This document shows positions 1,333 through 33,659 of a stretch of DNA of 64,000 nt, piece by piece (positions within the stretch are counted from its first letter, which is position 1; the number at the start of each line of letters is the position of its first letter). Made by a program: the position numbers and the translations under genes. Below the pieces are notes generated by a model that worked only from the letters and a program-made list of their open reading frames with translations, ran no database searches and had not been told where the DNA came from. Location of the stretch: NCBI GenBank assembly GCA_002205965.3, contig NADL03000755.1, positions 310,001 through 374,000 of the forward strand. The letters are read 5' to 3'. This stretch comes from Kappaphycus alvarezii (taxonomy: Eukaryota; Rhodophyta; Florideophyceae; Gigartinales; Solieriaceae).

Positions 1333-2199
1333 TTACAAGTTGACGCTGGTTTCCTTGTAGTTGTTGGCCCAGAACCGGTCCCACTTGCTCTTCCCAACAG
1401 AGTAGCCCATGAATAATTCCCGAACACTCTCACCATCCACAGTAGCATTTGAAATTGCAGCCCTTACCATTTCGCGGTGCTTGATGTCCTCCTCACCAAT
1501 GTGATATGTCCAAAAAGTCCAATCGATCTGTTTGCCGAGCTCAATCATGCTCTTGTTTTCACTAAGATACTTGTGCATTGCGGTCAAGTAGATCTGGCAC
1601 AGGCATTCACCTCCCATACCCACCATACCAACAACGTACTCATACGGCTTTGAGTGACAGAAAGCTTCAATCTCGGTCAAGATTTGGGAATTTTCCGAAT
1701 AGAGCGCAGTTTTGATTTCCGTATCTGTAATGCCCAAAGAGCGCAGAAAGTTGTCATACCACACGATGTGAGCGGCTTGCATTTTTCCGGAACCGAGCTC
1801 CTCTGCCAAGATCTCGGCCATGAGACTGCGAAGTTCGCCGTCCGGAAGTCTGGCAACTAGCAAGCCCAGGAAGGTGGGATAGCGCTCGACAAAGTATCTG
1901 TATTGAATGCAGACCTTTTTGATCTCGTCAAAGGAGGCTTCCTTTAGGAAAGCGATCTTGGCGTCGGATTCGTATTGAGTGTTAACCTTGGTTTCATCGG
2001 CGTGCTCCCAGAACTGGTCCATGGTCATGGTGTCGAGAATGTTGACGGATGCGATCATTCTGATGGAAGCAGTGTTGACTCTTGGGGCGTGTGAGACGAC
2101 TGGAATGGGACGGGTGAGGGAGGTGGTTGGTTTGGTGGTGAAGAAGCGGGAGGAGAAAGTTGAGACGGGGGCTGCGAATGCAAAGGCGTTTGGAGACAT
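1333..2199 (-). CDS. Haem-oxygenase-like di-iron (iron-containing redox) enzyme, predicted plastid-targeted, 288 aa
   Basis: Residues 1 to about 50 are rich in Ser, Thr, Arg and Ala with Phe at positions 6 and 8, as in red-lineage plastid transit peptides. Residues 55 to about 250 resemble the TenA/UndA/CADD-like haem-oxygenase-fold oxidase superfamily. Candidate metal ligands are Glu134 with His144, Glu198 in a Gly-Gly-Glu context, and His233, Asp238 and His241 near the end of the fold. This layout is known from non-haem di-iron oxidases and oxygenases; the substrate cannot be read from sequence. The frame is open upstream to 2436, but a TATA box at 2317-2324 would place transcription start near 2290, so the Met at 2199 is chosen, leaving a 5' UTR of about 90 nt. 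No intron is needed. Ordinary codon use and no lesions suggest a working gene. Confidence 0.8.
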   Translation of the reverse strand: MSPNAFAFAAPVSTFSSRFFTTKPTTSLTRPIPVVSHAPRVNTASIRMIASVNILDTMTMDQFWEHADETKVNTQYESDAKIAFLKEASFDEIKKVCIQYRYFVERYPTFLGLLVARLPDGELRSLMAEILAEELGSGKMQAAHIVWYDNFLRSLGITDTEIKTALYSENSQILTEIEAFCHSKPYEYVVGMVGMGGECLCQIYLTAMHKYLSENKSMIELGKQIDWTFWTYHIGEEDIKHREMVRAAISNATVDGESVRELFMGYSVGKSKWDRFWANNYKETSVNL

Positions 2200-2316
2200 G
2201 TTGGAATGGTTTGGTTGTGGTGTGGTGGTTTGGGGTTGGCTGATGGTTGAAGTGGTCGATGTTGAAAGTTGTAGCGAAGATAATGCATACAGAGGTCTGA
2301 CGCGATACGGTGCCTG

Positions 2317-2324
2317 TTTATATA
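2317..2324 (-). promoter_or_regulatory. TATA box of the di-iron enzyme gene
   Basis: On the minus strand these bases read TATATAAA. They sit about 120 bp upstream of the chosen ATG at 2199, giving a transcription start near 2290. Because the box lies inside the upstream extension of the open frame, it argues against the longer protein. Confidence 0.6.
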
Positions 2325-2329
2325 GGAGG

Positions 2330-4021
2330 GAATCGGTGAGTGGGTACCTGAACAGAAGGACAGAAGAGAGAGAAAGAGTGGTGATCAAATGGGATGGAGC
2401 AGGTGAAATGAATATTCTATTTTTGAGTATTCGCATACAGCATGGCGGATTTGAAGGTCGGGGGAAATGTAGGGAGGCTAATTATGGAGACTGGAGACTT
2501 TTGGGAGGTGTCGCGGGAGATGGGGGAGAAAAGGGATCTGCAGCAGTCGGGGGGGGAGGTGGTTGAAGAGGGGCGATTGGTTGAGTGGAGTGCTGGCGCA
2601 ATGAAGAGGGAAGGAATGTGCTTGGCTGACTATAGTGGTTGTAACCAAGTGTTGTGGGAGATGATAATTTTACAGGGGGGAATGGACCTTGCTCAAAAGC
2701 CAAAGTTTGATGCAGGAAAGGACAGGGTATCGACAAGAGGGAGTAGGATAATTAAGCTGCAAGAAAAACGCAGGGGAGTGTAAACAAGGTGGAAAGAAGT
2801 GGTGAGCCTAAAGTACGAGAAGAGGAAGGGGGTTGTGTGAGACAAGAAATAGCGGGATATTTTGGCTGTTGCTGGACAGCGACTCGCTGGTGTGATATCC
2901 AAAATGGATTGCACAAATCGTACAAAAATGTGGTTTGATGTAATGAATAGAATAGCGTCCAGACTTTGCAATGCAATCAGTTGTATTCTACTCGGCAGGT
3001 TTTGTGACGTTGTGCAACAAAAAAAGGTATGAAACGCCAAGTGACTCAAGGGGACAAGGGACAATGCACGAATACGTCACATGCAGCATACAGATACAAA
3101 CGTGGGACAAGCGTGACCTACACTAACTTAGTTTCAATTCAACGGCCAGGGACAGCTCTCTCAATATCTACACATCCTTTCGCCGAGAATAAGCACCGTG
3201 CATTGCAACTGTCAGCTACATAAACGTCGACATAGCTCAAGCACTCGTGCGGCTGCGTATACAGTAAGGAATCAGCAGTGGTAGCCGTTTTACTGATGCC
3301 ATAAAGTTACCACACTACAATTCCCTTTGGCTGAAACATCGCTGGCATGTGCCTTCCAAACGCCACCGCAGTTTTTGTACTTGCCAAACCAGATTCAACG
3401 CGCGTGATGCTCGCCTCATCGCAGCGTTGGTTGACCAGGCTTGCGCTGTGTTTTGCTCATTACGCAAAACCCAAGTAGGGAGGGAAACGTGTGGGGTGGT
3501 TTTCTGTGGAAAGGTAGTGTGGCACATATATGTAATGGGGTGGGACAGAGCGTGGTACAAGGCCTGTGGCCACTCTATTTTGTAGGATGCTCCTTTGCAA
3601 CAGACACGTATTTTACATGCGTACGCTTCGCCGCGAGACGGAAAGCTGGTAAATCGGCAGGTGGGATGGTGCACTAGTTGTTGAGGTTGATGGGATGTAT
3701 GCCATGGCGCGAACTTTGTGCAGCTGGCAGCCAGCCACATGTAGATGGCAGTGAATGCAGTTCCAGTGCGGTACTGTTCTAGTCGAAACTGGACTGCTTA
3801 CATCATTACATGCTTTACACTTTTGTCGGGCACAGATATTGGGTACAACTCGACTGCGTGACTCATTTCTTTAACATCAAAAGGCACACACCGACTGTGC
3901 CACGACTCCTGTTGTGATCCGTCTGTAACACGCTGTACTTTTTCTCCCTCGCAGGACGTGGCCGTAACCTTTGGAGGCTACTCGTCGGCACTGCACCGTC
4001 GAAATACTGTACTACTTGCTA
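2330..4021. other. Intergenic region, no supported gene
   Basis: 2440-2590 is G-rich (a run of eight G near 2550) and 2800-2830 is purine-rich. Frames at 2442-2783, 2693-3064 and 3315-3740 overlap each other on both strands and lack recognisable domains. The 141-codon minus frame at 3315-3740 begins with ATG but is Ser/Ala/Thr/Trp-rich without domain features. Confidence 0.4.
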
Positions 4022-10562: not shown

Positions 10563-11560
10563 CTAATCGGTATAACCCATTAAATCTAGATCAGTCTGCG
10601 CTTTGTATGTAATTTGATATTTCTTCGTATATTGTAGATAATGCAGTACTCTTCTGGCTGCTTGCCACAGGGCCTCATTAGGAGAACAGTAAAATCTTGA
10701 TAAGAATCCAACTGCGAACATAATATCAGGACGAGAAGTAACTGCAAGATACATCAGGCACCCGATGAGCTCTCTATACGGATAATTCTCATTAGTATTC
10801 TGGTAGACCTGTACTCTAGTATAAATATTGGGATTCATCGGAGTCTTGGTGCCTTTTGAGTTACTCATATTAAACTTATCTAGAATCTAATTAATGTATT
10901 GAGTCTGATGAATAGTCAACCTTCCACGTGATCGGTCTCTTTCTATACTCAATCCCAAGAAACATCTTGCTGCCTTAAGATCCCTAATGTCAAAATGTTT
11001 TGATAAAATATCCTTGAATTCTTGACAGGTTTTTAGGCTACGGGCGGCGATAAGTACATCATCGACGTACACAACAACAAATATTACGAATCCTTCTATG
11101 AAGCATTTGTAAAAACATGGGTCTGCTGTAGACTGTTCAAAGTTTAGAATCTTCACAATGAGACGGACCTTAGTACAAATGCTCTCGACGCTTGTTTTAA
11201 ACCGTAGATACTTTTCAACAGTCTTTATGCTTTGCCTTCCCAAGATGAACTGTTCAACTATTTTCTTAGTTGCTCCGGTATTTCTGGCGGTTCCGGGTAA
11301 ATTTCTTCCTCTAACTCCTCATTTAGAAATACAATTCTAATATCAGCTTGTTCAAGTTCTAGGTTATTCTTTGTCACAAATGCCAGGAAGAATCGTAGTG
11401 TGGAAAATTTTGTTACTGGGGAAAAAACTTCATAGTAGTCAACACCATGCTCTTGAGTAAAACCTTTCGCTACAAATCGAGCTTTGTACCGGAAAATTTT
11501 TCCGTCCGCATCGGTCTTGATATCAAATATCCTTTTACCTTGTATGGGCTTCTTCCCCTT
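10563..11560 (-). pseudogene. Copia reverse transcriptase, frameshifted
   Basis: From high to low coordinates: an N-terminal RYKARFVAKGFTQEHGVDY block (about 11430-11500) and an LEQADIR block (about 11340). Then comes a stop after PEQLRK, the motif KSIYGLKQASRAF (about 11180-11220) in a shifted frame, and the catalytic YVDD at 11058-11069. The end is YRELIGCLMYLAVTSRPDIMF and LHYLQYTKKY (10563-10868). The catalytic YVDD is intact although the frame is destroyed. This is the polymerase that copies element RNA to DNA. Confidence 0.88.
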
Positions 11561-12244
11561 TAGTAGATTACTTATTTGAAAGACTTCAAGGAACTGTATC
11601 GGTTTTATCTCCAGTCGTATATCTTCAATCTATGGGTCCGAATCAGCACTATTTGTTGCTCCCTGCACAATCGTCAGCAGACATCGGTCTGAGTGATTAT
11701 TGATATCTTATACTGTAAGGAATGCTAGCATTGCATTGGGTGTGGGTTCTTTACGGGTCCATCGACCGCTTCCAGTTGTTATCGGTACATGTGTCAATAA
11801 ATCAGGTCCTTTTGCGACCAAATTCCTGATATAATGTTCATTATTGATATCGTTTGTACCAGTATCGGTATCATCATCATCAATAGCTTCTGCTTCTATA
11901 TCAGTATTCATCTCTGTCTCGACATGAGATGCATGTTCTACCGCTTCTGGTTTTTCATCCAAACTAATGACCTTTGTCTGTGCAACCGGGGCAGGTGTTA
12001 CGTGTTCTATAAATTTGACATCTCTTGAGACTATAGCTCTTAATAAGTGTGGTATGAATGTTCTATAAGCTCCCCCTTCATTATATCCAAAATGGATTCC
12101 GTTCTATGCTCTCGAATCAAACTTCTCATCTATATAACGCTTAGGCTTCTTGAAATATACTTTTGATCCAAATATTCTTCATCCAGATAGATTCGGTTTT
12201 GTTCCATACATGATCTCATAAGGCGTTTTCTTGCAAAATAGTTC
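11561..12244 (-). pseudogene. Copia polyprotein linker between integrase and reverse transcriptase
   Basis: A frame at 11708-11962 is acidic and rich in Asp, Thr and Asn, like the variable linker between integrase and polymerase in copia polyproteins. The flanking DNA reads as broken frame. 12060-12240 on the minus strand encodes a KTPYEIMYGTKP-like start of the integrase C-terminal region. Confidence 0.6.
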
Positions 12245-13030
12245 TTATGTGGACTTAGTAAACGTACAGTTTCTTTTAAAATTCATACACTCAACTGCTT
12301 CGGCCCATAAGTAATTATATTGCTCTGTATTGTTAATTAGTCGAAGTTCAGCGATCATGCTCCTCGCGCCTTCAACACTTGTCCTACTAAGCCTCTCAGC
12401 TCTCCCATTAGATTCCGTAGAATAGGGTTGTGCCGTTTGATGTGTAATACCATGTGCATTAAGTGCCCCCGTTTTATACTCTCCAGTCCCATCAGTTCTG
12501 GCGGACACGAATCTCTTCTTAGTGACGTTCTCCATAATCTTAATCATAGGTTCAAGCGCTTTCGATGAGTCTGACTCATTTTGTGAGAACGTTACCCAAG
12601 ATGCTCCACTTGCATCATCTAAAGTGCACAGTATATAACTGGCTCCACCTGGCGACGTTACTTTCATAGGTCCCATAATATCAGAGTGTATAAGTTCAAT
12701 CACTTCACGGACTTGTTTAGTTTTTCCCGGGGTAGATACAGCTGCTTTCTTTCCTTTGCAGCACTCTCCACATACTTCTTTGTTTACAATCTTATCACTA
12801 TCGGTCTCTATACCGATAACAGCATTACTTAGAACCATGTCTTCTATGACCTTTGTATTTTTGTGTCCCATGCGTCTATGACACAACTTCATAGAATTGG
12901 TATTACCAAGACTAAATAGAGCTTTTTGCCCTCCTTGTATACAATGTGCCTCTGTACTGATTAATTCACAAATACCGTACTCTTGGGCACTGAAGATCAT
13001 CACCAACTCTTCATTCTTGTATGATCTCAT
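12245..13030 (-). pseudogene. Copia GAG-pre-integrase and integrase core
   Basis: A 261-codon frame carries the zinc-binding pair HRRMGH and CGEC, then HSDIMGPM with the first catalytic Asp. TDGTGEY carries the second Asp (the usual TDNG is altered) and NGRAERLSRT carries the catalytic Glu. This is the DDE strand-transfer enzyme that inserts the element. It is the longest unbroken piece of this element. Confidence 0.88.
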
Positions 13031-13157
13031 GTCTAGAGTGTTAGATGGGTAATCGATTCTGATTCCAGACTTTTGCGCTAAAGGCTATGATACCAGGTTC
13101 GTTCTTATGTTCGGCATGTCGGCTATTTGTTTAAGTTCAATAAACTTCCATTTTCCA

Positions 13158-13628
13158 TTAATTTTCTATTTCAACAGGACAGAGCCGTACCCTTTGACCT
13201 TTAAATTTTGCGTCTTTGTTAGCTGTGTTCACACTTTCATCGTCTGTGCCAACTTTCCTGTAATCATATATTATACTTTTTTGATTGGTCATATGTTGTG
13301 TGGCACAACCATCTAAGAAACATTTTTGAACCATTTCTTCGAGACCAACAGCAAAGGCTGCACACAATTTCTTAATACTTTTTCCTCTTTTCTTACGATT
13401 AGTTTGTTCATTCAAACTTCTTACTCTCCCTTCTACCTCTGTAGTGGGTTTAAGATCCGGTTTACAATTCTGTGATTCTGGGTTGAAATAGCATTTAATA
13501 GACGGATGGCCTTCCTTGCCCCATGCATGGCATTTACCATTGAAACGCTTCTTTGATCTGTTGTTATACCGATTCCTGTCCCTACGAACCAGTGTAAAAT
13601 GCGGAGTCACTGCCTTTTCGTTCTCCAT
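13158..13628 (-). pseudogene. Copia zinc knuckle and aspartic protease region, active sites altered
   Basis: A CCHC-type knuckle is present as C-HA-W-GKEG-H-PSIK-C: the second Cys is Trp, one base from Cys. The protease motif, normally D-S-G-A-T, reads D-G-C-A-T. Both changes would disable function. A basic Lys/Arg-rich segment precedes the knuckle, as in nucleocapsid regions. Confidence 0.75.
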
Positions 13629-14040
13629 CCTTCGAGTTTTTCAATTCCTCCTCCCGAATCTCAAGTCTAGAAACTACTTCTTCGGACAGCATACTCGGTG
13701 AATTCTGAAGAACTGTCTTCATCATATCATACTCATCCCCCAATCCTTGGAATAAGGAGAATTTCTTATAATCCGGATGTAACTCGTAGTCGCTCATGGC
13801 GAACTCATTCTCTATCTCAGAGATCTCCTAGACAAATGACCTTATAGTCTGGTTGTTTTTCATGCTAAGCCTGAACAACTTAGCACGTAGTGTATACTGG
13901 CTCGCTGTGGCCTTTCTTTTCTGCATTGATTCTAATGCATTCCAGATTTCCTTGGGATCAGTCTTTTGAGCAAGCGACGGTAAAAACTTAGGATCCATGG
14001 TATCAGTACCATTGATGTCAAGGAACACGTTAAGTATCCT
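13582..14040 (-). pseudogene. Copia gag, partial
   Basis: Two frames, 13828-14028 and 13582-13797, join across a stop at about 13828. They show the UBN2-type gag pattern: DPKEIWNALESMQ, LRAKLFRLSMKNNQTI, LFQGLGDEYDMM and LSEEVVSRLEIREEEL. The gag N-terminus, expected beyond about 14040, is missing. There the DNA instead encodes plus-strand gag-like sequence. Confidence 0.75.
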
Positions 14041-17825: not shown

Positions 17826-18717
17826 CTACGTTGAAGTATGTCTGCGACAGTTCCCCAGGCACAGCTGCGCCGTAACGACCCACAGCTTAGTCATATGTGG
17901 CTTATACATATGATGGACCCGCATCGGAGAATCTTCCGGTTTGAAACGAAAAAAAACCCTTAACAATAAACTTCGGTCGTGTCCAGAAAGAAATGGACCC
18001 ATCAGAGCCCTGAAAATAATTGCTATGTTGATGAAGATATGTAGAATCAATTGAGTTTCGGCATTTTCTCTCGTCAATGAACCAATCAATTCCTTGCCTT
18101 GTATGCCAACAATTCTGAGCATCATGTAATTATGAAAAAGCACATTACTTGGGACATTGTAGGGTCCAATCATACAAAGTTCTTCGGTTCTCTTATGATA
18201 CGGGACGAGGCTTCGTGCATGAATAGCTCCTTTCGACCTCTACCCAGAACTTGGGCAGAGCTCGTAATGTGGGTGCCTTGCTTTCGTTGTACTGCATGGA
18301 TTGGAATACTTCGTACGGAACGCGGGCCACTTCACAGTCTGTTGTAAAGCCTTACAATGAATGACCATAACCTTAGATCCGACAGCAAATGTCCGCGGTA
18401 TTTCAGGGAACCCTTATTTTGTTTTCACTTTCTGGCCCGGTTGCACCTCCATTTTTCGGATGCTAGGAGCTCCATCTCTTTTACCTTAGATTACATATTA
18501 GTACCTTCAACATCCTCTTGTACCATTCTAGGGGCCTTTATATAAATTCCCTCGAACAGATAGTACCTGCCGCTTCTTCTTATAAGCCCTAAACCGTACA
18601 AAATCTTTGTCATGGAGTCCTTTCAGGAGGGATCGTTTCCCAGCATGATCCTTAATATGGCCCTTATGACTGTTCACATCATCGTCTCTGCCTTCCTGTT
18701 GGACATCGGAGAATAGG
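17826..18717 (-). pseudogene. Gypsy integrase C-terminal region, heavily decayed
   Basis: The frames 18528-18734 and 17826-18173 and the sequence between them are consistent with the C-terminal part after the integrase core. They are basic and include a VGSKVMV-like stretch expected of the GD.V.V motif, but stops are frequent. The extent is uncertain. Confidence 0.4.
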
Positions 18718-19310
18718 CTAGAACCGTTTTGCAATTAATTCCGTGTTCTTTCTTGAATTTGGCAAGAGATGTAGCCGTAAAGCAAAGCGCGTTGTGCGAA
18801 ATGTTTTCGTAGGTAGGCCAAAAGGCTCAATTATTTCCTTCTTTATAAATAAAATGACTACCTCGGCGATGGCGTCCTTAGAAGCCATTGCAGATGGCCA
18901 TCTTATCAGGTGGTCAATTGTTATGAGAAGATATTTGTTCTCAGAAGGGGTTTCCTTAGAGGAGCCGGCAAAATCCCAGGAAAATGTCTCAAAAAGCCCG
19001 GTAATAACAATAACGAGAGTGGATTTGTAATTTTTGGACTGGAGCGAGCTTTTTGCACCCATTGAAACTTTTTACAAAGTTATAGATGCCCCTGTGCCAG
19101 TCCGGCCACCAAAATCTTTCCGCGATGAAATTTTTCGTTGCGCTAAGGTCCCAATGGGCTAACTCATCATAGAAGGTCCTCGTAATCTCGCTTCTTTTTC
19201 CTGGTAGAGCTGCTAGCCGGAAACTTGCTTTTATCCACCGGAATAGCTTTCCTTCCCATACCGAAAATACTTTTTTGTTTCGTCTCACCCATTCTCTGTG
19301 TTTCAAACCA
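18718..19310 (-). pseudogene. Gypsy integrase zinc-binding domain and core
   Basis: The frame 18989-19306 has the H2C2-like region LAHWDLSATKNFI...FWWPDWHRGIYNFV...GCKK with the first His and final Cys visible. The overlapping frame 18718-19062 has FETFSWDFAGSS with the first catalytic Asp, then YLLITIDHLIRWPSA and EPFGLP. The expected SDRG motif with the second Asp is not visible, probably through a frameshift near 18790. Confidence 0.75.
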
Positions 19311-19796
19311 ACTCTCGTGATCTATAGCCCCGTCATAATTCGAAAAATAGATTTTAATTTGGCTTCGAGGTCAACTGGTCCAGCCATATCAACGACGGTT
19401 ACTTCGGTACTATTTTTTCTGCTTCTTTGATGTTTTCTTTCGGATCATTGGACCTGGAAAGAAAGTCTGCTGGCTGGCTGATTCTTCCCGACAGGTAAAC
19501 GATTTAGAATCGGTATTCTGCAAATAATTTGAGCCATCTCGCCAAATCAGTTGTGGACATCTTACTTCTTGAATGCAGTTTTGAGGGTCTGGTGATCTGT
19601 TATCAACTCAAATTTTTCTGTGAGAGAAGGTAGACTCGGAATTTTTTAGCGCGAACAACACAACCAGGGCCTCTTTTTCGCAGACTGGATACTTTGATTC
19701 AGCATAATTCGTTGTACGACTCGAAAAGTATACTGGGTGTAATTTACGTCTTCTTCTGTATGGGGCAACATGACGCCGAATAAATCCTCCGAAACA
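19311..19796 (-). pseudogene. Gypsy RNase H region, multiply broken
   Basis: Fragments such as KPFIVETDVSEDLFGVML (about 19765-19820) and FELITDHQTLKTAF (about 19570-19610) match the gypsy RNase H motifs F.v.TDAS..a.GavL and f...TDH..L. Stops and frameshifts separate them. Confidence 0.7.
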
Positions 19797-20708
19797 TCAG
19801 TTTCGACGATGAATGGTTTTTCGAAGCCCGGAAATGTGTATGGGCGGTTCGCACAATTTCTGTTTTAGCTCTGCGAAAGCGTTTTCCATTTCTGGGCCCC
19901 AATGAAACTTTCCGTTCTTTGAATTTAATGTGTGTAGAGGGGCCGCCCTCTTATCAAAACCACTAATAAACCGTCTGTAATACGATGAAAGTCCAATGAA
20001 GCTACAGAACTCTGTTTTAGACGTTGATCTGGGAGCTTTTTTGATCCTAGAGGTCTTTTCTGGATCAATACTGATACCGCGGCCGTCCACCATGTGACCA
20101 TGTAATTTAATAGAGGGTTGTGCGACGAACAACTTGCTCAATTTGATTCTCAAATGATACCGTGAGGTCCTTTCCATCACTACCCTAATGTTATCCAGGT
20201 GGGTTTCCAGTGTTTCCGAAAATATCACCACGTCGTTTATATACACCCACAAAAAAGAGGGATCCTTCAATACCTCTTTCATGATTCTTTGAAATATTGT
20301 AGCTTCGTTCATAACAACAAATGGCATCACTTCAGCCCTGAACTTCCCCAGTTTGCAGGTAAATATCTTCATGGCTTGAATTCTTCACAGATGTTTCCGC
20401 CAATATCCTGTGTAAAAATCTGTAGACGTAAAGTAAGGCCCTCCTTTCAATTCTTCTAGAATATCTTCCATGTTTGGGTGAAAGAATCGATCGGGGATCG
20501 TTCTTTGGTTAAGTAAGCGATAGTCTACACAAAGCCTCGACTTATCATCTTTTTTCGGAACAATCACAACTGGGAAAGACCAAGCTGACGAAGTCGGCTT
20601 AATAATTCCATTTTGTAGCATAGAAGTGACGTTTTCTTGTACACTTCCTTCCCATTTCGGTGGTTGACGTCTTATTCTATGATAAATGGGCGGTATTAGC
20701 CAGCTCAA
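19797..20708 (-). pseudogene. Gypsy reverse transcriptase, catalytic Asp changed
   Basis: The frame 20385-20708 begins the domain: RRQPPKWEGSVQENV, LQNGIIKPTSSAWSFPVV, LCVDYRLLNQRTIPDRF and FTSTDFYTGYW. A stop and shift near 20372-20390 separate it from 19797-20372. That piece has VMPFVVMNEATIFQRIM, the catalytic box as YIND at 20232-20243 (normally Y-x-D-D), then the SFIGLSSYYRRFI and FHWGPEMENAFAELK connection. The first catalytic Asp is Asn, a single G-to-A change. Confidence 0.88.
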
Positions 20709-20800
20709 ATGAGTACGTGACAGGGACTCGGTCCAATCGTAGGTCCCAAGAGTTCCAGGCGGGCAATTCGTTTAAGGTAAGTATTGCGGCGATTTACTCC

Positions 20801-22704
20801 GCTTCAGGGAGAGAAAAATGCTTCAGTTTGCCCTGAATGGTCTCCTTTTTTTGATTACCTCATCACCTCCATGGTCTTATCAACTGGTTCTATCTTGGAT
20901 TTTTCGTTGGCTGTAGGTATATTTTATTATCTCTATCATCTCTTCCATGCAATAACTTGCCTTGTTATATCTGTTATTTTCATGATTTTGCTTTACTTCG
21001 TAGATACTATGACTGTAAAATGATATTAGTTTTTGCGGGAAGACACAAATTTGAGCTGTTCAGGAAGAATGTTACTTCCTCTTCTGCACATAAATTTTCA
21101 GTTACATGAGACAGATGCACTCGAGCTTGATGGGGCAAAATTCCTTGCTGCTAAATCGGTTGTGTTAATGTAGGTCTTTTCGGGACGAGCTTGATAGTTG
21201 AGCATTAATATTAAGTCCAACAGCGGTGGTAGAGCTACAGGGATCGGGAATATTCTTCAATGTATATATGTTGAGTTCTTTTCAGTCAACGAGAGTGAGT
21301 TATTTTGGACATTAAGGCTATTTAAAGTAGAATTTGAAGCCTCTTGTGGTGCGCCTTTATGGTTTTAATCATCAGATAGAATATTTATAGATGTAAGGTT
21401 TATCTCTTAAACCTTGGTACTTTTAGAGTTATAAGTAAAACGATTACTTCAAAGGGTTTTAAATTATGACCAAAAAAGGAGGATTCCTTTCCGAGATAAA
21501 ATTATTTCAAATTTTTGTACCTCTGAATGTTCATATTGTTGCTGACTTTCAAGTCGTTTAGATTGAAATCCTTTTAAAGATTAAATGAATAAAATATATT
21601 GCTGATACTATCATTTCCTTATCTGTACGTTTTGGAGAACTTCAATTGAAATATATTCATTACATATTTTAACAAAAATTAGGCCTTCGCTTATATGAAT
21701 TGGTATTTGATAGAAAATTATGAAAAATACTATATGAATACCCATTCCATGCAAATTCTATCAAAAAATGCATGATACGTGCTAGAGCAAAACGGAATAC
21801 GTTTCTGGAAAAAATTGATGCCGAAATCATCTCAAAAGCTAGAAACATTGCATTACTGTGCATTTAAAAGAACCATTTGACAAAAAAGATTATTGTGATT
21901 TTTGGGGTCTACCGTTACCTTTAGAGATACTCTCTGTGCTCTATACAGCTATGAATAAGTTCTTAACCTGAGATAAGTGTATTATGAAAGAAATTCATAG
22001 CTTCTGTCAATCAATGCTGTGCGATGAACTGGTATTGAGGTTTTGCTGTATAAAAATAAGCGAATAAACAATGCCATTTTTATTGACTTCCACATAGAAA
22101 AATAATATAAATTTTCCGCAAGTTCAATACTATAACCATACTAGTCGGGTTTAAAATTTCTTGAAAAATTCAAAAATATATACAGTACGCAGTGGAAACA
22201 CTATATTAACTAAAGTCAGTCTCAGAAAAAGCGCACTAAAAAATGTTTTTATTTGAAGGAATGTCATGCATGATTGAGAGAAGGAGATGGAGCTACGGAG
22301 TGAGAGAAAGAAGGAGCGAGAAAAGTAGAGTTAAAGAAAGAGTGAGTGAGAGAACGAGTGAGGGACCAAGAAGGAGAGTTGAGAGGAGAGAAGGTAGTAA
22401 GGGACTTTACTCAGACAGAACATGGAGGGAGACCGGGGCTTACAGAGAACTAAAGGCGAGTCGAGTGGTGCTTCCGGACGATCGAAGGAAGTTTCAAGAA
22501 GCTATGTAGACGACGGTGGGAGAGTAACCCTAAATTTGCTTAAGATGATCTAAAGATGACCAGCTCAAGCTTACAACGCTGTACAATGCAGAAGCGTAAC
22601 GGTCAATTTCTTGGTTTTACAGTAACCTACAGTAATGGAAGTCAGAAAGCCTCTTTGCTAGCTGTAAGCTGTGAGCAGCGGCGACAGAAAGTAATAACAA
22701 TATC
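20801..22704. other. AT-rich region without gene
   Basis: From about 21000 the composition turns AT-rich. A purine-rich, Arg/Glu/Ser-coding low-complexity tract lies at 22262-22500 (frame 22243-22509); it looks like simple-sequence DNA, not a domain. Nothing else is recognisable. Confidence 0.4.
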
Positions 22705-24035
22705 AATTCATAACGCTTAAAGGCTCTAATCGAGCTAATTACAACGGTATGTATTACTTTCAGAGCGCACAGTTTTACGCAAAACTATGCTTGCTTAAGT
22801 GCGAGGATGTGAATTCGTGGCAGGGGAATGCATTGATGTGATCTAAATACTAAATTTTTATTAAAATTAAAAAGGGTTTATTGTTTCAGATCTAGATCAG
22901 GTGCAGTCCTCGGTAGCGCGATTGACCACAAGTCACGAGTTACATCATTACCGAATTCTCGTCCGCGTGCAATTTGCCGAGTGTAGACTTTACTGAGGTG
23001 TGTCAAAAATTTGTGGCTGCCCCAACGAAATGCCTACGAGGGCTATGAAGTCAGAGGGAAGAGCCGAAGTGCTTTCCTAAAGATAGAATAATAATGGAGA
23101 TGGAAGTGGTCATATTCAGATGAGATGAGCACGTTGCCGTCCCGAGAACAGTGAGTAGATGCAGAAGGACTAACGAAGTATACATATATATGGGATGAGC
23201 AGTTGAAAAAGCCTATCGATCTGTGCAACAGAGATTTTCGTCAAGGAGAGGTGCAGCAGAAGCTCGAGGATGGAATGGTCAGAGCCCGGTAGATGAGGAC
23301 GGTTTTGAGAGGAAAGGATGAGTATGGGAACAAGCGAGGGAACCAGCGTAGAAAGAGGCGTTGGTGGTGACCGTTGATGGATGGAGAGGTCAAGATACAG
23401 GGGTTCTGGCCGATTCGTAGCACGAAGGGGGCCGATTCGCCAGACGGAATTGGCACGGAACATTAGAGGAGGTGGGTTTAGTGAGGAGTTCCGCAAGGTC
23501 CTAAGATGAGTGGGCCAGACCGGAGGAGGTCACGGGCTGGTAAGACTTTGATGAAGGGCAGAAGTGGGGTGTAGAAAATGTACATCTTGCAAGCCATCCT
23601 CAGCAATACGGTGAACATTGCCTCTGAAGGCAGTTGTATGACGACGGAGACGGGCTACAAACTGTACGCATGCTTTCGCAGGAGCGTACGGAAATCCACA
23701 ACTTGGTAGGGGGGGCTGAGGAGGGCTATATGAGCTGAGTGAAATGGAGATAGTAAAAAGACTACTGTTTCCTTAAGTCTCCGGGTCCCTATTTCCTCCC
23801 ACTTATACGAAATAAGCATACTTAATTACCAATACTTAGGACATCTCAAGCGCAGAAAAGCGCGTTGCCTGGGACTAGTTGGGCCTCATTTTATCACAAA
23901 GGACACATAAACGCTACATTTCTACATAACAGGAATAAGAGACGTACTGTTGGTAGAATGCAGCAAGTTTCGATTCACTGAATCGGCCACATATTGTCCT
24001 GCTAAGCGGGAGGAGATGATTGAGAACAAAGGGGA
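22705..24035 (+). repeat. Left arm of a large inverted repeat
   Basis: The arm is the reverse complement of 30575-31855, collinear through at least six anchor blocks. The anchors (left/right) are about 22806-22846 / 31715-31755, 22921-22940 / 31621-31645 and 23095-23230 / 31341-31462. The rest are 23410-23510 / 31040-31140, 23840-23900 / 30700-30760 and 23950-24000 / 30590-30650. The left arm's reading frames are more damaged than the right arm's. The outer limit is uncertain by tens of bases. Confidence 0.85.
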
Positions 24036-24990
24036 GGACCTTTAGTACGTCATAATAAAGAGAGCAGGAATAAGGTGGCTAATGGCGTTGCAGCTTGCGG
24101 CATTTCATAGCAATCGCCGCACGTTCCTGAATGAGAGAGGATAGAGTTTGCAAGAGGTTATGGCAGTCGACACTTATTTTCGTTTCGTTTGGAAGGCGAT
24201 GCACTCGGAGATGCAATGAAGACCGACTTCGGTCCCTGGACTAGCGGAACCGTAAAAATCGAAGCCATGGGATGGAATTGAATATCCAATTCGTCACATG
24301 GAACCTAATGTCGTTTTTTCTTAACGCGCTGAGCATCTGTGAAATGTGTAATAGGGTCTGAATTACGGAAATGAAAGTATTATTCAGAATGAGGGCTGAT
24401 CACAGCAACATCAAGCACTTATGGTCAAGGAGTAAATTATGGATCGTCTATGTAGAAATCAAGACAGAGATGACTGTCAGGGTTTTTGAAGGAGTCCTGG
24501 GGGATTCCTGTTCGCGAACAGATCGGAACGCAATGGAGGGGGTGGTAAGAGAAGATTAAAGAGGGTCTCGTAGCATTCTGTGGCATCGAGTAGAGCCATA
24601 ACGCAAGGACACAATCAGGCATGATGCCTAGATATGTTGGGGAGCAGTACGGAGCGGAAAAGGGCAGCAACAAAATTGTGGGTGTTAAGCGCACACGAGC
24701 AGATCTAGATATTAATGTGGTTGAAACTTTGGTTGAGGCTGGCCGGGCTAAGCCGACCGCTCCAAACCAAGGTTCATATTGAACTAGAGATAGCTACATA
24801 AGAAAGGAAAATGTAGTCACAGTAGTGAATGCAAAGGTTTTCCCGTAAAACAGCCCTGAAGTTATCATAAGCAGCGCTTTTCGAATTGTAGTGGGCACGA
24901 ATGATATACTCTGAAAAGATGTAAGAAGTACATTGGTCCAGGTTGCATAGGATATCAAGACAAGTTTTGATTGGTAAAGAAGTGATATAA
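24036..24990. other. Loop of the inverted repeat, left part, no supported gene
   Basis: An open frame at 24371-24559 (62 codons) has no recognisable domain. An imperfect hairpin around 24728-24775 (TTGGTTGAGG...CTCCAAACCAA) is the only structure noticed. Confidence 0.3.
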
Positions 24991-25197
24991 TATCCCAGTG
25001 TGTCACTCGCCCGTAACTATTCCAAGTGTACCAATGGGGGGAAACGCTGTGTTCAGAACTGTCAGGAAAAGTGTAACGACAGAAACGTGCCTAGTGGCCC
25101 TGGTTGTAAGGTTACCGCTGGTTCGAATCTACAGTACAGTATATGCAATAAAAGCGTGTAAAGCTGTAAGGCCTGTGAAGTGAAATACAACAAAAAT
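24991..25197 (+). pseudogene. Cysteine-rich reading frame, interrupted
   Basis: In the frame that reads NYSKCTNGGKRCVQNC from about 25016, cysteines fall as C-x6-C-x3-C-x3-C-x10-C-x12-C. A TAA at about 25157-25159 follows, then SCKAC and a second stop at about 25197. Clustered Cys with Gly, Asn and Lys resembles a small secreted or extracellular Cys-rich domain. There is no start codon in frame and upstream stops lie close, so it is best seen as an exon or pseudogene fragment. The family was not recognised. Confidence 0.35.
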
Positions 25198-25419
25198 GGG
25201 GACGTATAGAAAGTAAGGTATTCCAGACCTCCGGCCTACAGCGGATGTCCATGTGACTCATCGGTTAGAGCAGCAATAGGTCAAATTACGGAGGGCGAGG
25301 AAATGGATAAGAGGTATTTCATGTGGTGACGAGATGTGTTCAAGCACGGATTGGATGGAAGAAGCGAATCTTAGCGAGAGTCCATGATAAACCTTAAAAT
25401 GTTAACTGGAAGTCTTCAG

Positions 25420-26060
25420 GTCTTTTGGGAACAGTCACAAGACACATAAACAGGAACATAAGTTTCCCTGAGGTGTCAACAGGATATCTCAGGAAATATT
25501 GGTAGAAATTTGGGGGTTTCTAGGAGACAATATAATGTCTCCTGGACATTCTCGAATCTCCTCCGTATGTCTACTGGACATTCTCATGTCTTTTGAGAGA
25601 AAAAAATGTGGCACTTCTATTCGCAACTAGCTCACATGAAACCTTAGAAAGATTATGCGTTTCTTAAGGTGGCTTAGGAATGTATGAGAACATCTTCGGA
25701 AAACGTGTGGGGTCCCTAGGAGAAATTCAAATGTTCACTGAGCAACCTAAGGTCTCCTGGGAACCAAAATGTGCAGCACATATTTACACGAGGAGTTAAC
25801 AAGACACTTTAGGATGAACATGAGTTTTCCCAAGGTGTACTGGGAATATCGCAGAAAGTCCTGGGAGGGCGTTGTGGGTTCCCAGGAGACCTTAAAATAT
25901 CCTTTTTCCATGGTCGTTGAACTGTCAGCTGTCACTAACATGTCTCCTAGGAGCCAAAAAGGCAGACCACATATGAGTTACTGATGGGACAATCTAGAAA
26001 AAATATGACGTTTCGTAAGGCGTCCTGATTATGTCCCATGATATTCTGGGAGACAGAGAG
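25420..26060. repeat. Degenerate tandem repeat, unit roughly 160-200 bp
   Basis: Similar stretches of the type GACA...ATGA(G/C)TTT(C/T)CC.AAGGTGT...GGAAT begin near 25440, 25640, 25800 and 25985. They are interleaved with CTCCTAGGAG-like and CTCCTGGGAA-like boxes. A related stretch with GGTGTCTCAGGAATA lies near 29510. Units are diverged and uneven. Confidence 0.5.
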
Positions 26061-28638
26061 GGGACGAAGATGGCCTGTTAAATGACCACTGACAGGAAGA
26101 TTGAAATGCCCTGGCCTACGATTTCCATCAATAGCAGAAGACTACAACGTCATTTTACGTGATGCTGTGTTCCTATTTTGTTCTTACTCCAATAGATTTC
26201 TCTCTATCTTCCTCTGTCTTGTACTGTACCTCTTAGCATTCCCTGATGCAGTCCAGATATAAGCAATGGTAAAGACTATTGAAGATTAATATAATTGAAA
26301 CGGAATCGGAACGCTTCTAACCAGTCTTCCGTGCTATCGAGAGATCAAATTGCATCATAAATACGCCTAAAAAATTGCCAAAAGTACAGATAAGCGCGTG
26401 AATTAACAACTCATGCTGGCTTGCGCTTGATGAATAGTTACTTAATACGTGCGAATGAGACCACATGTGTATAGCGAAAGGCTGCTTACCCGAAAACATC
26501 ATTGTCATATTTACCACCTCCTGAGGATCAAAGTAGGCTTTTAATCTTCATTCTCCTATACAGTGAATAAAGAGACCCTTACATTTAAAAGCACCAGAAG
26601 CTAATGATCTTGTGGAACAATAGTGTTTCATTCGAAATCGTTTCCGACGAGTGCTCTGGAGCTCCGTTTTTTTCTATTTTCCTCGCATAAAGGCCTGGAT
26701 TTTATGTCGTGGTCAACCGTTGCATAGCCTCCAGCGAATTTTTCACAGTCTAATGGCTATGCACAGTCTAATGGCTATGCCAGCCAAATTTCGAACGGTT
26801 TTTGTGTATTTAATTCTCCTCCCAGTACAATTCTCAGCAAATGTATTGCGAGCCACATGAAAAGTAGCTAGAAACCTGATTAGGAGATCAACTTCTACCT
26901 GATGGAACTATCACAACTTATCCCCAATAATGCAGACCACAAAGTTTTCCTCGGTTTGCTTTTAATTGCTGTCTCGAGCGTAGGATTTCAGTCTGCTGAG
27001 GTCTTTAGACTGCAACTTCTCCACACACCATTTAAATTACAACTAATGCTCTGGATAAGACTCAGCCAAATGGATAATCGCAGCATAGCTGACCTCCGTC
27101 CACAATCCTATACCACCGCTCTTGTCTTTTGAACATCCCTCCGTACCCGTGCGTGGCAATTAATTTTCACTCATAAAATAAAGTAGTCAAAAAAACGCCT
27201 TGCCCCACTTCCGTAGCCATTGCCCTGCTACCACTTGCAGAGAACCCACTTACAATGCTTGGAGAAAACTCCGATCGATTGAATAGATTTTTAATATTTT
27301 TAAACCAAATGGGACAATCAATCTGACTTTTGTGTACGGATTGAATGACATGGGATTGGTAGCAACCACCTCCACACCCACCATGAAATATTGGAATGAA
27401 TACTATTGACAGAAAAAGTTGACTGGTGAGAAAAATCCTGTTGGTGAACGCAATCCCTGTTGGGAGCTCTCCTCGGGAACCTCACCATTGGTGTTCTGAT
27501 ATTACTAAACCATATTGTATGGACTCAACTTAAGTCGCAAGTCAGAGGATATTTCATGAGAAGTGGAATTTCATCTTTACTTAATAATAGATAAATCGCA
27601 GTGAGAATAAATTTTGAATTGGTTGAATAAATTTTTTTTGTGCGTTAATCAAGTTTTAAGATTATTGTGGGACATTCAAGAAGACCTGGTAAAGACCCAT
27701 TTACTGCTTAAAGGACTTTATTTATTATTTATTTACTATGAAAATTGAAGATACAGCTAATTTGTTAATAGAATAGCTATTCAGTTAAAGAACACGATGT
27801 TGAAGTCGGGCGGGCATTTCTGACGTGAAGCAAGAGGTTTATTTGGAAGATCTTAAAAAGGGGAGTGAGCAGCGTAGGCTGAGGGGTGTCTCCCAGGACT
27901 TGTACGACCATGACTTTGCATGAGACCCTGCTTTCACCACTCATTATCTCTCTTTGTATCACTGCCAATGTAGAAATAACTGAGGTGCTGGTGCACGGGA
28001 GAACGAGTCTCCCCATATTTACTTCTTTTAAAAGAATAGTTCCACACTCTTAAAATTCTAACCACCCCATTACGTGACTCATGGATCAAATCATAGGGAA
28101 GGACCCCCGTTTTGCAAAAATACCTATTAAAAAGGTATTTTCTGTTTCTTGAGCTATGGATATATTGCTTTTTTGAGATAGATCGGCCCATGCTTAAATC
28201 AAAATAGCTATTAAAAACGTATCCAAGTCGCCTCTCATGTTTGACCTATGTGCTGATCCACGGATCAGCAACACGTGCCGACCGTGACTTGACGTGACCT
28301 ATTAATTCTAGACAATGTCATGAAGCAATGATCAACCACCATACAATATCATCTAAAACGTTTTTTCTGCGTCAGATGTTATCTGATAGATTATTAGACC
28401 GGTCCTATCCTTCATAAACATGCTCCAGTTGATGAAAACAGTCAGGTTGATCAAAGTAACAAGCACCCAAACCATGTCACTTGTATCAATCTGGTGGGCC
28501 ATCTAATTCGCCAGGATGCAAAAACAAGTTCACCCCATCTGGGAAAATTTGATAAACTGTGACATTGCAGGATGTTTGCGATACATAAATTGATATTTTA
28601 TTTGATATCTATGAATCCAGTTAAATATCATTTGATAA
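26061..28638. other. Loop of the inverted repeat, central part, no supported gene
   Basis: Only short frames occur, for example 26902-27132 (plus) and 27777-28191 (minus, two overlapping). A tandem 18-bp duplication (CACAGTCTAATGGCTATG, twice) lies at 26741-26780. No domain was recognised. Confidence 0.35.
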
Positions 28639-29262
28639 CTAGCATCTAATACATTTGAGCCTCATCTACGCACTGTTTTACCAATTTCCAAATTACTTAA
28701 AGAATGTAAAATGTTACACAGGGATTATCGCATTGATAATCAAGTGGGTGAGCCCCAAAATTCAATTGACACAAATATGAATGACGGAGATGTATTACAT
28801 AACACAATCGAGGAGGAAAACAGGGTATCTTCGAGGCTAAATTATGAAATCGGAGATTTGGTGGAGGTCCGTGCACTACGTGATGGAAGGGTGCAGTTAT
28901 TGATATCATAAGTAATAGATTTACGCCCTAGAGATGGAGATGGTTACTCATTATCTGTATCTTTGAGGTGGTATGAGCCTACTGACAGAGCGACGGGAGA
29001 AAATAGTCCGTTCAATGTGTCGTACAAACCATCTTTCGCAGGAAGTGGAACCAGGGCATAGCCGTGTAAACAGAATTATTTGGATGTGAGAAAAATATTT
29101 GTGCCTCTTGATCACCCTCTCACTCGAATGAACCGAAATCAAAACATAGATAGACAATTCGAGGAGCCCACTCAGTTTGAATTGATGTTCCTGGTACAAC
29201 ATAAGTTTTACAGCTCGGATTGGCCTTTGAAAAAAAATTCTATATCTCGTACGCTATCCTAG
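28639..29262 (+). pseudogene. Interrupted gene, possibly BAH-domain-like
   Basis: One frame runs from 28639 to 29262 and is broken only by TAA at 28909-28911 and TAG at 29059-29061. The first Met is at 28711. The middle reads YEIGDLVEVRAL...GRVQ, then after the stop VIDLRPRDGDGYSLSVSLRW followed by YEPTD. This resembles the start of BAH or Tudor-like chromatin-reader domains (G-D-x-V-x-V ... x-R-W-y-x-P). The C-terminal part (about 29062-29259) is Arg/Asn/Phe-rich and unrecognised. It lies inside the inverted-repeat loop. Two clean single-codon stops in 207 codons suggest a recently dead gene or element protein. The domain call is tentative. Confidence 0.45.
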
Positions 29263-30574
29263 GAACCGCTCCCGAATTCCAGGGTTACTCTTTGCACTTC
29301 TAGAATGCTCTGGAAACTAACCTCTAACTCCTAGGGATACCTTTATATATTGCTGGGCTGCACAGTAAAGATCTTAGGCATTCACGGGATATCCCTACAG
29401 AGCCTTCAAATATCCTGCGAACAACCCAAAAATTCCTACATTACGCCTACAAATTCTTATTGTGTCCTGCGGACTTCTTCCATATTTCCAGGACAGGTTT
29501 AACATTGTTGGGGTGTCTCAGGAATACCATAGCCTTTCATAGGATAGATCTGGACATTTCAGGGGTGAGTTGGCAAAGGATGAAAGGAACCTTGCTGTCA
29601 GTAAAGGTATATATCTTAAAACGTAATGAATATATGTATGTAAAGAGCGCTGTAGAGCAGGATAAAGAGAACCAACAAGTCACTATCCCTTGGGTGGTTT
29701 AATAAAATATTATATGCCTCTCCGCAGAGATTTATGTAAGGTTGGAACTGCCGACTTGTATGTCGCAAAGGGAGATCACCTATGTATGCAATCAGGTCTA
29801 TAGAACGATCTGACTTTAGTTCTGTGGAAAGTGGCAACATCGAGGGAAACGTTGACGACCCATAGAAGCCCGATCTTGGTGAAACGACGATCATTAGGTG
29901 TCAGTAATGGGTTGAAATTTTATTTATGTACTCAACAATGGGGGCAGGCGATTGGAGACGATGGTGAGGGTCCACCTTCACACGCTGTTGGAACTATACA
30001 CTTAGCTAGCGTAGACAAACTGAACATTGAACCTTAGAGGAGAGAGAATTGGAGGAATGGTGATACCATTGTAATCATGATACACAGTTGTTGTTATGAT
30101 AAATCCCGGCGTCGAAGCAGGTTGAGCGTAAACAGAAGGTGGGTGGTGCGAGTGAGGCCTTGTGGAGAAGAAGGGTGGCGGGAGTGGGAGAAGATTCTGA
30201 AAGATGCAGAAGGCGTGGGAGGTGTGTGAATCAGTGGATATGAAAAGCGCACAGAGGTTATGATGTGATTCGCGGGTGTCAGTGGTACGCGCCGGTTGTT
30301 ATTGCATGTGCATTCCTGTAATGAATGAAAACACGTACATGGTAATCTGTTTTTATACTCCTTCTCCTTCCAGCCGTACTTTTTTCCTTATCTCCCAAAA
30401 AGGGAAGACCAAGCATTCAAACTATTGACATTTATGTACCAATGAAGGATTGGAAGTTAATGCCTTGGTCCTGAATATTTACAGTGTTATTGGTGATGGT
30501 TTCCAGACCGAAGCCTGGCTTATTTCTTCTCCCATTTCCTCTAAGCATGGAAACTCTTCTGGAAAGTAACATTA
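29263..30574. other. Loop of the inverted repeat, right part, no supported gene
   Basis: 29270-29580 has the same style of short AGGA/CCTA boxes as 25420-26060. A frame at 29831-30037 shows no domain. Nothing else is recognisable. Confidence 0.3.
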
Positions 30575-31855
30575 AAACCTTCTCAGCCATTGCTTCTGTT
30601 AGTTGGACAATATGCATCGACACTTACTGCATTCTACGAAAAGCACTTCTCAGATTCCTGTTATGTCGAAATGTAGCGTTTATGTGTCCTTCGTAATAAA
30701 ATGAGGCCCAACCAGTCACAGGCAACGCGCTTTTCTGCGCTTGAGTTTTCCTAAGTATTGGTATTTAAGGATGCTTATTTCGTATGAGTAAGAGGAAAGA
30801 GGGACCCCGAGACATAAGGAAACCATAGTCTGTTTCCTATCCCCAACTCACTCAGCTCATACAGCCTACCTCCGCTCCTGGAAAGCAGGCGTCTAGTTTG
30901 TGGCCCGTCTCCGTCGTCCCGCAACCGCCTTCCCAGGCAATGCTCACCGTATTGCTGTGGACGCCTTGAAAATGTCTATTTTCTACACCCCACTTCTGCA
31001 CTTCATCAGAGCCTTACTAGCACGCTACCTCCTCCGGTCTGGACCACTTATCTTAGGGCCTTTCGGAACTACTCACTAAAAACACCTACTCGAATGACCC
31101 GTACCAATTCCGTCCGGCGTATCGGCCAACCTTGTGCTACAGCTCTGCCAGTAACCCCGTATCGTGAGCTCTCCATCCCTGAACGGTCACCTCCGACTCA
31201 CCTTCCAACGCAGGTTCCCTCGCTAGTTCCCATACTCATCCTTTTCTTCTCAAGACCTTCCCCATCTCCCCCGCCCTGATCTTGCTATCCTTGAGCTTCT
31301 GCCGCAGCTCTTCTGGCCGAACATCTCTGATACACAGATCGATAGACTTATTCAACTGCTCATCCCATACATATATGCATACTTCGTTAGTTCTTCCGAA
31401 TCTCCTTACTGTTCTCGGGACGGCAATGTGCTGATCATATCTGAATATAACCACTTCCATCTAAACTAGTATTCTATCTTTAGGAAAGAACTTCGTCTCT
31501 TACCTCTCATCTCATAGCCCTCGTAGGCTTTTCGTCGGGATAGCCACAAATTTTTAACGAACCTCAGTAAAGTCTACGCTCGGCAAATTGCATCCGGATG
31601 AGCATTCCGTAATGATGAAACTCGTGACTTGGGGTCAATCGTGCTACCCAGGACTGCACCTGACCTAGATCTGAGATAAAAAACCTGTTAATTTACATTG
31701 AAATGTAGTATCTAGATCACAGCAATGCATTCCCCTGCCACGACTTCACATCCACACACTTAAGCAAGCATATTTCCACGTAAATTTATGCTCTCTGAAA
31801 GTAATGCATACCGATGGGAATGAGATCTATCAGAGCTTTTAAACGGCATGCATAA
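30575..31855 (-). repeat. Right arm of the large inverted repeat
   Basis: This is the partner of 22705-24035. On the minus strand it holds an open frame 31236-31460 (74 codons from ATG) starting MEVVIFRYDQHIAVP, whose equivalent in the left arm has a stop after seven codons. Further conserved coding-like phrases in both arms (for example KRRKARC and VGPHFITKDT near 30690-30750 and 23850-23910) suggest each arm derives from one element that encoded protein. The family was not recognised. Confidence 0.85.
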
Positions 31856-33659
31856 AATTTCCTCTGTTAAAAATATTTTTCTGTTCACTTTTCTTGAGAC
31901 CGGTTGTTGTTGATATAGAGTTTGAGTTCGAAATAGCTATATTTTTACTCTAATATTTTAAGAAAGTGGGCTGGAAGTACATGAGGCTATATCCATAGAA
32001 CGGTTATTTCTCTCTTCAATTTTAAAAAGTATGTCATGAATAACTTGAGAGGGGCCTTTACTACTTCCGTCAGTAGTCAAATCACCGCTATTACAATATT
32101 TTCAATAAATATTCGACACTACGCAGTGTTTCTATTTCATTGGTACCCAATGTAAATATTTTTTGTTCAATTATCCTTACAAGAAGCGTTTCGGGAGATA
32201 AAATGTTCGAATATAGAAGAACGTTTGCATAAATATCGAAAACTAGTAATTAGTGACTAAATTCCTTATAAATACTTCATTAATAACTGCATTTTTCATG
32301 AAATTACAATTAAAGTGTCTTGAATGTGAGCAAAAAGAACACATTACATTCATTAAATGGAAAAATTAAATATTCTTATGTTATAAGTAGAGAATGTTTA
32401 TAATAATGATAAAAATATTTGCTCTTTACTGTGCTAGTAGTACTGAAAAATAGTCGTAATAATATTTATATAGTTTAATTGCGAAAATGTTGACTCCTAG
32501 AGAAATTGTTTTCAAAAAGGTTTTTATTGAACAACCTCCACCATATTGAAAATTTATCACAAATACTTTGCTCTTTATTCTGATTTCCTGCGTATGTTTT
32601 ATTCTAAAATGGAAACAAAGGATCCGAAAAATTAGGAACCAATAAATTCTTTCATATTTTGGAAATAATTGTCTTTCCGATCCTTTAAGGCATGTTCAAT
32701 ATTTAATATACAAAAATTAAGCTTTACCTGGATCTTATGTCATTTGCAGGTGCCTCTCGGCAATCAGCGATACTTTACAACTTAAATTCAGATAATTACG
32801 ATTTTATTGGCGTCTGGCATATATTCAGCGGCAACAAAACGCTTATATTACAATCTTCTTTCTGTGATCTTCTTCATTTAACATTTCCATAGTATAATTT
32901 CAAAAAGGCGCAGCTTATCTTGTAATAATAGAATATTTATATCCCAATTTTCCAGAGAATCAATTCCAAAAGGGGGGAAATTGGGTTTTTTTAATGACTG
33001 AAAAGTAGGTTTGCCTATTTTGTAAAGCGCATCAAATAATTGGTACAAGTGGTCGGGATGGGGGAACCAAGAAACGGATTTAATCCGGTTCAAAGTCGCT
33101 AGAAGGCTGACTCGAGGCCAGCCAGCAGGCAGGCCGAGTTAGAAGTGGTAGTGGCCGCAGCTTGACATTGCGTGAACATCTGCTAATATAAAAATTAGCG
33201 GCAATGATTACTAAAACATTGATTGAGAAAAGTAGAGGTTTCCATCTTAAATTTGCAGAAAAGACTTCTTTTCATTCCAAAAGAATTATTTCAGCTTGAA
33301 GTTCCCTTTTTTTATTTTTATATGGACTTTTTCTTCAAATTTATGTATATGCACATGTTGAATCAATTAAAAGTTGGTCGAAAACCTATTATTTAGATTT
33401 TTACACATTCAGACTATACTGAAACTACATATATTCGCTTCAGGTCGAAAAAATGCAGTAATGAATATTTATTTATTTATTTCCATCTAAAACGATTAGA
33501 GCTTACTGCAGAGTGGTTCTTAGGCAGAGTAATAGTGAGAAGTGAGAAATGTTATGGGCATTTTATTATCTCCAAATCTTAAGAATAGTATTCTTAATAA
33601 AAGAATGAAAATTTACTGATTCACAGTATTTACCTACTGAATAGGACATTATACAGTAT
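31856..33659. other. AT-rich non-coding DNA
   Basis: Very AT-rich with A/T runs and frequent stops in all frames. The frame 32878-33093 (minus, 71 codons) has no recognisable domain. Nothing else is supported. Confidence 0.4.

Follow-up and report, generated by a model that had tools for sequence, protein, structure and literature searches.

The 64-kb window of the Kappaphycus alvarezii genome analysed here (C751:310001-374000; C numbers denote contigs of the 336-Mb, 884-contig assembly) contains a 9-kb structure in which a loop is flanked by two long arms in inverted orientation. The structure raises the question whether it is one large DNA transposon with long terminal inverted repeats (TIRs) or two copies of a dispersed element in opposite orientation, the alternatives put forward in a first reading of the sequence (the original prediction). 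Our analysis indicates that the region 22197-31922 is probably one decayed, non-autonomous DNA transposon, with TIRs of about 1.3 kb.

Inverted arms and termini

In a gapped self-comparison, the two arms (22706-23977 and 31853-30613) align in reverse complement with 82.1% identity over 1,276 columns (E = 0). The alignment contains long gapless stretches, and the inner limits of the arms are located near 23977 and 30613. An ungapped repeat search recovers the pair as six collinear blocks, which bears out the predicted collinear arrangement; with a minimum of 60 bases, no further pair is listed for the window.

A terminal profile, built from 13 aligned ends, matches both outer edges of the structure, at 22196-22272 (+) and 31929-31724 (-). 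The ends first placed at 22705 and 31855 hold for the uninterrupted arms, the termini of the family being located at 22197, behind an insert, and at 31922. The features of the arms are as follows.

22197-31922: whole element, probably a relict transposon, 9.7 kb including nested inserts
22197-22272, + strand: outermost part of the left TIR; profile match of 40 bits, weakly matching the right outer end (69%)
22273-22705: nested repeat in the left arm, 433 bp; absent here from the other aligned copies except C631a
22706-23977, + strand: left TIR (arm); 82% to the right arm
30613-31922, - strand: right TIR (arm), from the self-comparison and the terminal profile

Two pieces related to the nested repeat of the left arm were found near the arm of C619. 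Three short copies (L014, L016 and L020) also match the terminal profile, each of them at both ends. Inverted repeats are thus present at both ends of the window structure, of these short copies, and of two larger relatives (C614 and C760, see below). The better-kept termini read AACACT..AGTGTT. C614 and C760 carry the motif AACACT at either end, C4 and C679a carry it at the 3' end, and the window structure has it at the left end, its right end being AACTCT.

The coding-like phrases first noted in the arms did not hold up for the arms as a whole. Comparison of four other copies with the left arm shows no codon periodicity (p = 0.98, 0.67, 0.81 and 0.30), and the arm strand has no long frame common to most copies; the reading of the arms as genes was rejected on these grounds. 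The antisense strand has a stretch of 236 codons free of majority stops, which we attribute to the pyrimidine-rich composition. In one stretch (23806-23955), the changes between the two arms are distributed unevenly over the codon positions (11, 4 and 0).

Copies of the arm in the genome

Searched against the genome, the left arm gives 29 matches; two of these are the window arms themselves, and the other 27 are at 70-82%. The counts of genome-wide arm searches are lower bounds. In the fetched flanks, the copies all break off at about arm position -75 on the outer side, and their surroundings are unrelated. Plasmid records gave no match.

A tree of 16 aligned arms is nearly star-like, with about 75% identity, and some pairs reach 84-89%. 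In this tree, the two window arms and the partial arm C631a group together as a clade (support 1.0). In the same alignment, they are 84% identical to each other, as compared to 66-77% to the other copies. Two pairs of loci (C590/C46 and C460/C695) are 99.7-99.9% identical over 20 kb on different contigs, and each pair is probably two assemblies of one locus, that is, uncollapsed haplotypes. On C515, two arm pieces that are contiguous in the query (490928-491232 and 510418-511031) have the same orientation but are separated by 19 kb. A large insertion has therefore probably divided that copy.

Order of the loop segments

The loop was described originally as having, by eye, no match to known elements, and no family name was found for it by sequence. 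Several of its parts recur at other loci.

23978-28718, + strand: left part of the interior; pieces common to C450, C15, C590, C585, C7, C751b, C631a and C631b, beside the arm
24680-25193: second nested repeat, which C450, C15 and C590 lack at the equivalent position, and which is present elsewhere, also inverted; the cysteine-rich frame of the original prediction (24986-25180) belongs to this separate repeat
25437-25901, + strand: degenerate direct repeat of ~105 bp from the self-comparison (25437-25539 against 25799-25901, 70%), confirming the predicted tandem block; the region is also found in C450 and C15
26914-27423: conserved interior segment A; 66-70% at C17, C5, C851, C637, C130 and C427
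28107-28266: conserved interior segment B; 73% at C427 and C851
28639-29259, + strand: interrupted frame, first called BAH-like; its core (28843-29193) is 67-68% at C637, C614, C851, C5 and C130
28934-30612, - strand: right part of the interior; pieces common to C619, C460, C509 and C4, beside the arm

Segments A and B are among the 12 matches in all that the region 26409-28718 has in the genome. The region 28720-30612 has 18 matches in all; those other than the core matches are the window itself or fall in other parts of the query.

The positions of A, B and the core, obtained by subtraction in the orientation of the element, are distances in kb that are counted from the terminus at loci with a known one. 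In the window they are 4.7, 5.9 and 6.6 kb. All three segments recur in C851, at 5.4, 6.9 and 10.3 kb. C637 has A at 5.3 kb and the core at 12.4 kb, and C427 has A at 5.2 kb and B at 6.7 kb. In C5 and C130, the core comes after A, at a distance of 7.4 and 4.5 kb, respectively. C7 has the arm, A and a part of B, in that order, and C17 has A alone. In C614, the core is at 12.0 kb and a second end at 15.9 kb, the core being located between two inverted termini; neither A nor B of C614 is among the matches of the interior searches.

Order and orientation agree at all seven loci with at least two parts, ends and arms being counted as parts (C851, C637, C427, C614, C5, C130 and C7). The core scores of C637 and C614 are equal, and these two loci are perhaps not independent. 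A terminus of the family lies beside the interior segments at C851, C637, C427 and C614. The core belongs to the right half of the loop, and A and B belong to the left, so that the simplest account of the loop is that it formed the inside of a single element. The arms, the common termini, and the conserved interior order beside termini at other loci (between them in C614) are all direct observations.

Large relatives and insertion sites

The end of L020 has 21 matches in the genome. On two contigs, inverted pairs of ends are separated by about 16 kb: C614 (98867 and 114767; 15.9 kb) and C760 (16602 and 32960; 16.4 kb). All four ends match the end profile, with 104-143 bits. Over at least 570 bp, the ends of C760 agree at ~98%, their differences falling in the outer third, and those of C614 are ~85% identical over 268 columns (both counted by eye). 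These pairs, together with the loop segments collinear beside the same termini, speak for the first of the two alternatives, a large DNA transposon with long TIRs. The interior of C760 contains a nested Ty1/copia element and a Ty3-type protease. That of C614 contains a nested element that we read as being of the type lacking long terminal repeats, for which Pfam gives no match. Nested retrotransposons thus account for some of the 16 kb, which need not be the length of an intact element.

Two short copies, L016 (C679a) and L020 (C4), are located inside a Tc1-like relic. A piece of this relic matches the Sleeping Beauty transposase (E = 8e-4) in a search of the PDB, and Pfam missed it. In C4, the relic runs through ..ARSPEL to TTAA on one side of the copy, and after TTAA on the other side it resumes with SIKNL.SRLERT. 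C679a has the same insertion, with one base altered in the 5' TTAA. As judged from these sequences, the two represent one ancestral insertion event with a duplication of TTAA. At C614, C760 and C509, only partial matches to a target duplication were seen by eye, and the comparison of end-to-end similarity within C509, C679a and C4 was uninformative. L016 also has, at ~2544-3051, an insert bearing palindromic GTCCTCATATGAGGAC motifs.

A duplicated copy of the region

The homeologous segment C631:974000-999299, when reversed, is collinear (with gaps) with 2225-32886 of the window, at 88-92% up to 7754 and 80-85% beyond. It retains the nested insert, the left arm and the left interior to 28718, in pieces, as well as the first 400 bp of the right arm and its outer flank. 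The region 28719-31452 is absent from it. As the parts of the element are kept collinearly, the element was probably in place before the duplication. This segment and the other arm pairs at ~85% suggest an old large-scale duplication.

The four arms (two in the window, two in C631) have 37 derived changes common to the three arms that can be scored. Over the first 400 arm bases, the left arm is 83.8% identical to C631a and 84.2% to the right arm.

One element or two copies

Several observations weigh against a single transposon. Ten arm copies were fetched (8 distinct loci), and none of them has an inverted arm within ~10 kb, or a second terminus detectable by the profile. The sole inverted match among them, in C631a, is the nested repeat; C631a also has a partial inverted arm 14 kb away. 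The end search found one end only at C851, C637 and C427, and none at C5 and C130. The bases just outside the window ends, TGGA and TGAG, do not match, so that the target-site duplication sought there is not shown for this copy. The C631 segment has no match to 17868-22278, which includes the left outermost 76 bases and the adjoining flank. Finally, C751b and C631b also have the right outer flank next to them, although their arm leads into an interior of the left type. A single undisturbed insertion does not explain this pattern; an inversion between long inverted ends could.

The results on coding capacity also tell against a single transposon. Pfam searches of 90 open reading frames (ORFs; 83 of 139 from eight fetched stretches, of at least 95 residues, and 7 from the loop) found no transposase, only retrotransposon domains, in a scan that reached the smaller part of the large relatives' interior. 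One weak match to an integrase core, in L021, is surrounded by matches to retrotransposons. The interrupted frame (28639-29259) has two internal stops in 207 codons, and the conservation of its core at five other loci indicates that it is real. On the other hand, a run of this length arises by chance in 27 of 100 block shuffles of the loop and is not unusual. The name BAH was not confirmed: Pfam searches of the first and last pieces of the frame and a PDB search of the first piece gave no BAH match, the middle piece not being searched. Comparison of interior blocks between dead copies shows no significant codon periodicity (lowest p = 0.052).

Further searches of the interior were likewise negative. 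Among window ORFs in and around the loop, none is above the Pfam cut-off (the best, cytochrome b559 at 0.0099, is below it), and the PDB has nothing significant for the first frame piece or for the ORF of segment A in C7. The C7 ORF has no match in viral contigs, a search that reaches close relatives only, and Rfam finds nothing in the window at gathering scores.

The second alternative of the original prediction is kept as a rival, which we regard as unlikely. In this account, two members of one dispersed repeat family lie tail to tail, with a junction at ~28.72-28.93 kb, and their arms were perhaps gene-converted later. The abundance of arm matches, the lack of a nearby inverted arm at all ten fetched copies, and the mismatched bases outside the window ends all speak for such a pair. 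A possible seam is seen where homology to C631a stops (28718) and homology to C619 stops (28934). Single arms in unrelated surroundings, which the original prediction had named as the mark of independent dispersed repeats, do occur in the genome. What they do show is that in many copies one end has been lost or lies too far off to be caught; they do not alone show that the window pair is unrelated. The evidence for conversion is divided. Among the four arms, five sites with the pattern of orthology (positions 2-96) are followed by six with the within-window pattern (168-317), and this switch is a hint of gene conversion between the window arms. Against it, the left arm and C631a share 9 derived changes and the two window arms only 4.

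What tells most against two copies is that loop segments from both halves are collinear elsewhere. At C851, A, B and the core follow one another as in the window, next to the terminus of the family, and A recurs together with the core at C637, C5 and C130; both sides of the supposed seam are therefore in one unit. In C614, moreover, the core is enclosed by two inverted termini. The single element is also favoured by the terminal sequence at both outer ends of the window structure, by the clade of its arms, by the parts of it kept in C631 and by the constant orientation of the methylase gene in the family (see below).

An inverted segmental duplication or palindrome of immobile host DNA, although the window lies within a duplicated segment (C631) and further copies of the right outer flank exist at C751b and C631b, is very improbable in view of the many arm copies with unrelated surroundings and a common outer edge, one of which interrupts the Tc1-like relic with a TTAA duplication.

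If the window structure is a single relict transposon, its history may be outlined as follows. A transposase encoded by an intact relative would have bound the terminal and subterminal sequence of the arms, and insertion would have occurred at a short AT-rich target (TTAA in the sole readable related insertion). The copy would have been in place before its chromosome segment was duplicated. Having no recognisable methylase (see below), it would then have gained two other repeats and decayed.

Comparison with known transposon systems

Polinton/Maverick elements are ~16 kb in size, with long inverted ends, several genes (including a protein-primed polymerase B and a retroviral-type integrase) and a 6-bp target duplication. 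The large relatives resemble them in size (~16 kb), in their long inverted ends and in having several genes. In contrast, the one readable insertion of the present family has a 4-bp TTAA duplication, not one of 6 bp. The termini of piggyBac differ from AACACT, the terminal motif of the present family. A TTAA target duplication, as in one related insertion here, is described for piggyBac in PMC9587614.

The family possibly belongs to the Kolobok superfamily. According to the same paper, Kolobok elements duplicate a 4-bp TTAA target, their termini follow the rule 5'-RR and YY-3', and their hosts include rhodophytes (PMC9587614). The termini AA..TT fit the rule and the TTAA duplication agrees in one related insertion, although the window copy, C614 and C760 have no TTAA duplication shown. 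The N6/N4 DNA methylase carried by loci of the family and the very long inverted ends are unlike Kolobok as described there, and no transposase was found in the ORFs scanned. The subgroup KolobokP has long repeated ends, with solo ends as separate copies, the ends being direct repeats (PMC9587614). The present family has such long repeated ends and solo ends; its ends, however, are inverted, not direct.

Other features of the window

A decayed Ty1/copia element is located at 10887-13640 (- strand), with its reverse transcriptase above the cut-off and its integrase and gag-pre-integrase below it. A Ty3-like fragment at 19797-20771 (- strand) has a reverse transcriptase at 19797-20384, and another at 58.5-59.6 kb resembles the protease-bearing element nested in C760. 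Judging by its retrotransposons, the window is eukaryotic DNA. At 1333-2481 (- strand), an open frame that is extended at length on the N-terminal side matches PF14518 (3e-14), the family of haem-oxygenase-like iron enzymes.

A methylase gene in the family

A frame at the end of C614 matches the Pfam family N6_N4_Mtase (2e-6, 28.4 bits, cut-off 26.7) and DNA methyltransferases of solved structure (best 6e-4). It has 27 matches in the genome, nine of which, at 60-100%, are distributed over seven loci (C614, C130, C637, C851, C585, C427 and C5). The other 18, at 33-44%, include several that have no internal stops, which suggests other methylase gene families in the genome.

Six of the seven loci also carry A or the core, and the seventh, C585, has an end of the family 10.2 kb away. 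At all five loci where an end is known, the methylase is antisense when read inward from that end. Its distance from the end is 0.2 kb in C614, 3.4-3.5 kb in C851, C637 and C427, and that noted above in C585. In C130 and C5, which have no known end, it is antisense to A. Wherever A is present (five loci), the gene is located on the side of A that faces the end. This constant orientation at seven loci, with conserved segments beside the gene at six, suggests that the methylase serves the element. The window is not among the 27 matches, and its copy has therefore lost the gene or keeps nothing recognisable of it.

We tentatively propose, as a doubtful possibility, a family of very large transposons (up to ~16 kb found) that carry an N6/N4 DNA methylase and a second conserved protein, possibly a chromatin reader. 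These proteins would mark the DNA of the element, and thereby shape its transposition or let it escape silencing; the long inverted ends would also recombine together. Keyword searches of the open literature turned up no such methylase-bearing family, which does not prove its absence. To our knowledge, few large DNA transposons of eukaryotes combine very long inverted ends with genes for enzymes other than the transposase.

As a relic, the window copy is ordinary, and the interesting part is the family. With the reading given here, an unexplained 9-kb structure becomes a datable relic. If the methylase does serve the element, DNA methylation by a transposon for its own benefit would become testable in an organism with better-preserved copies.

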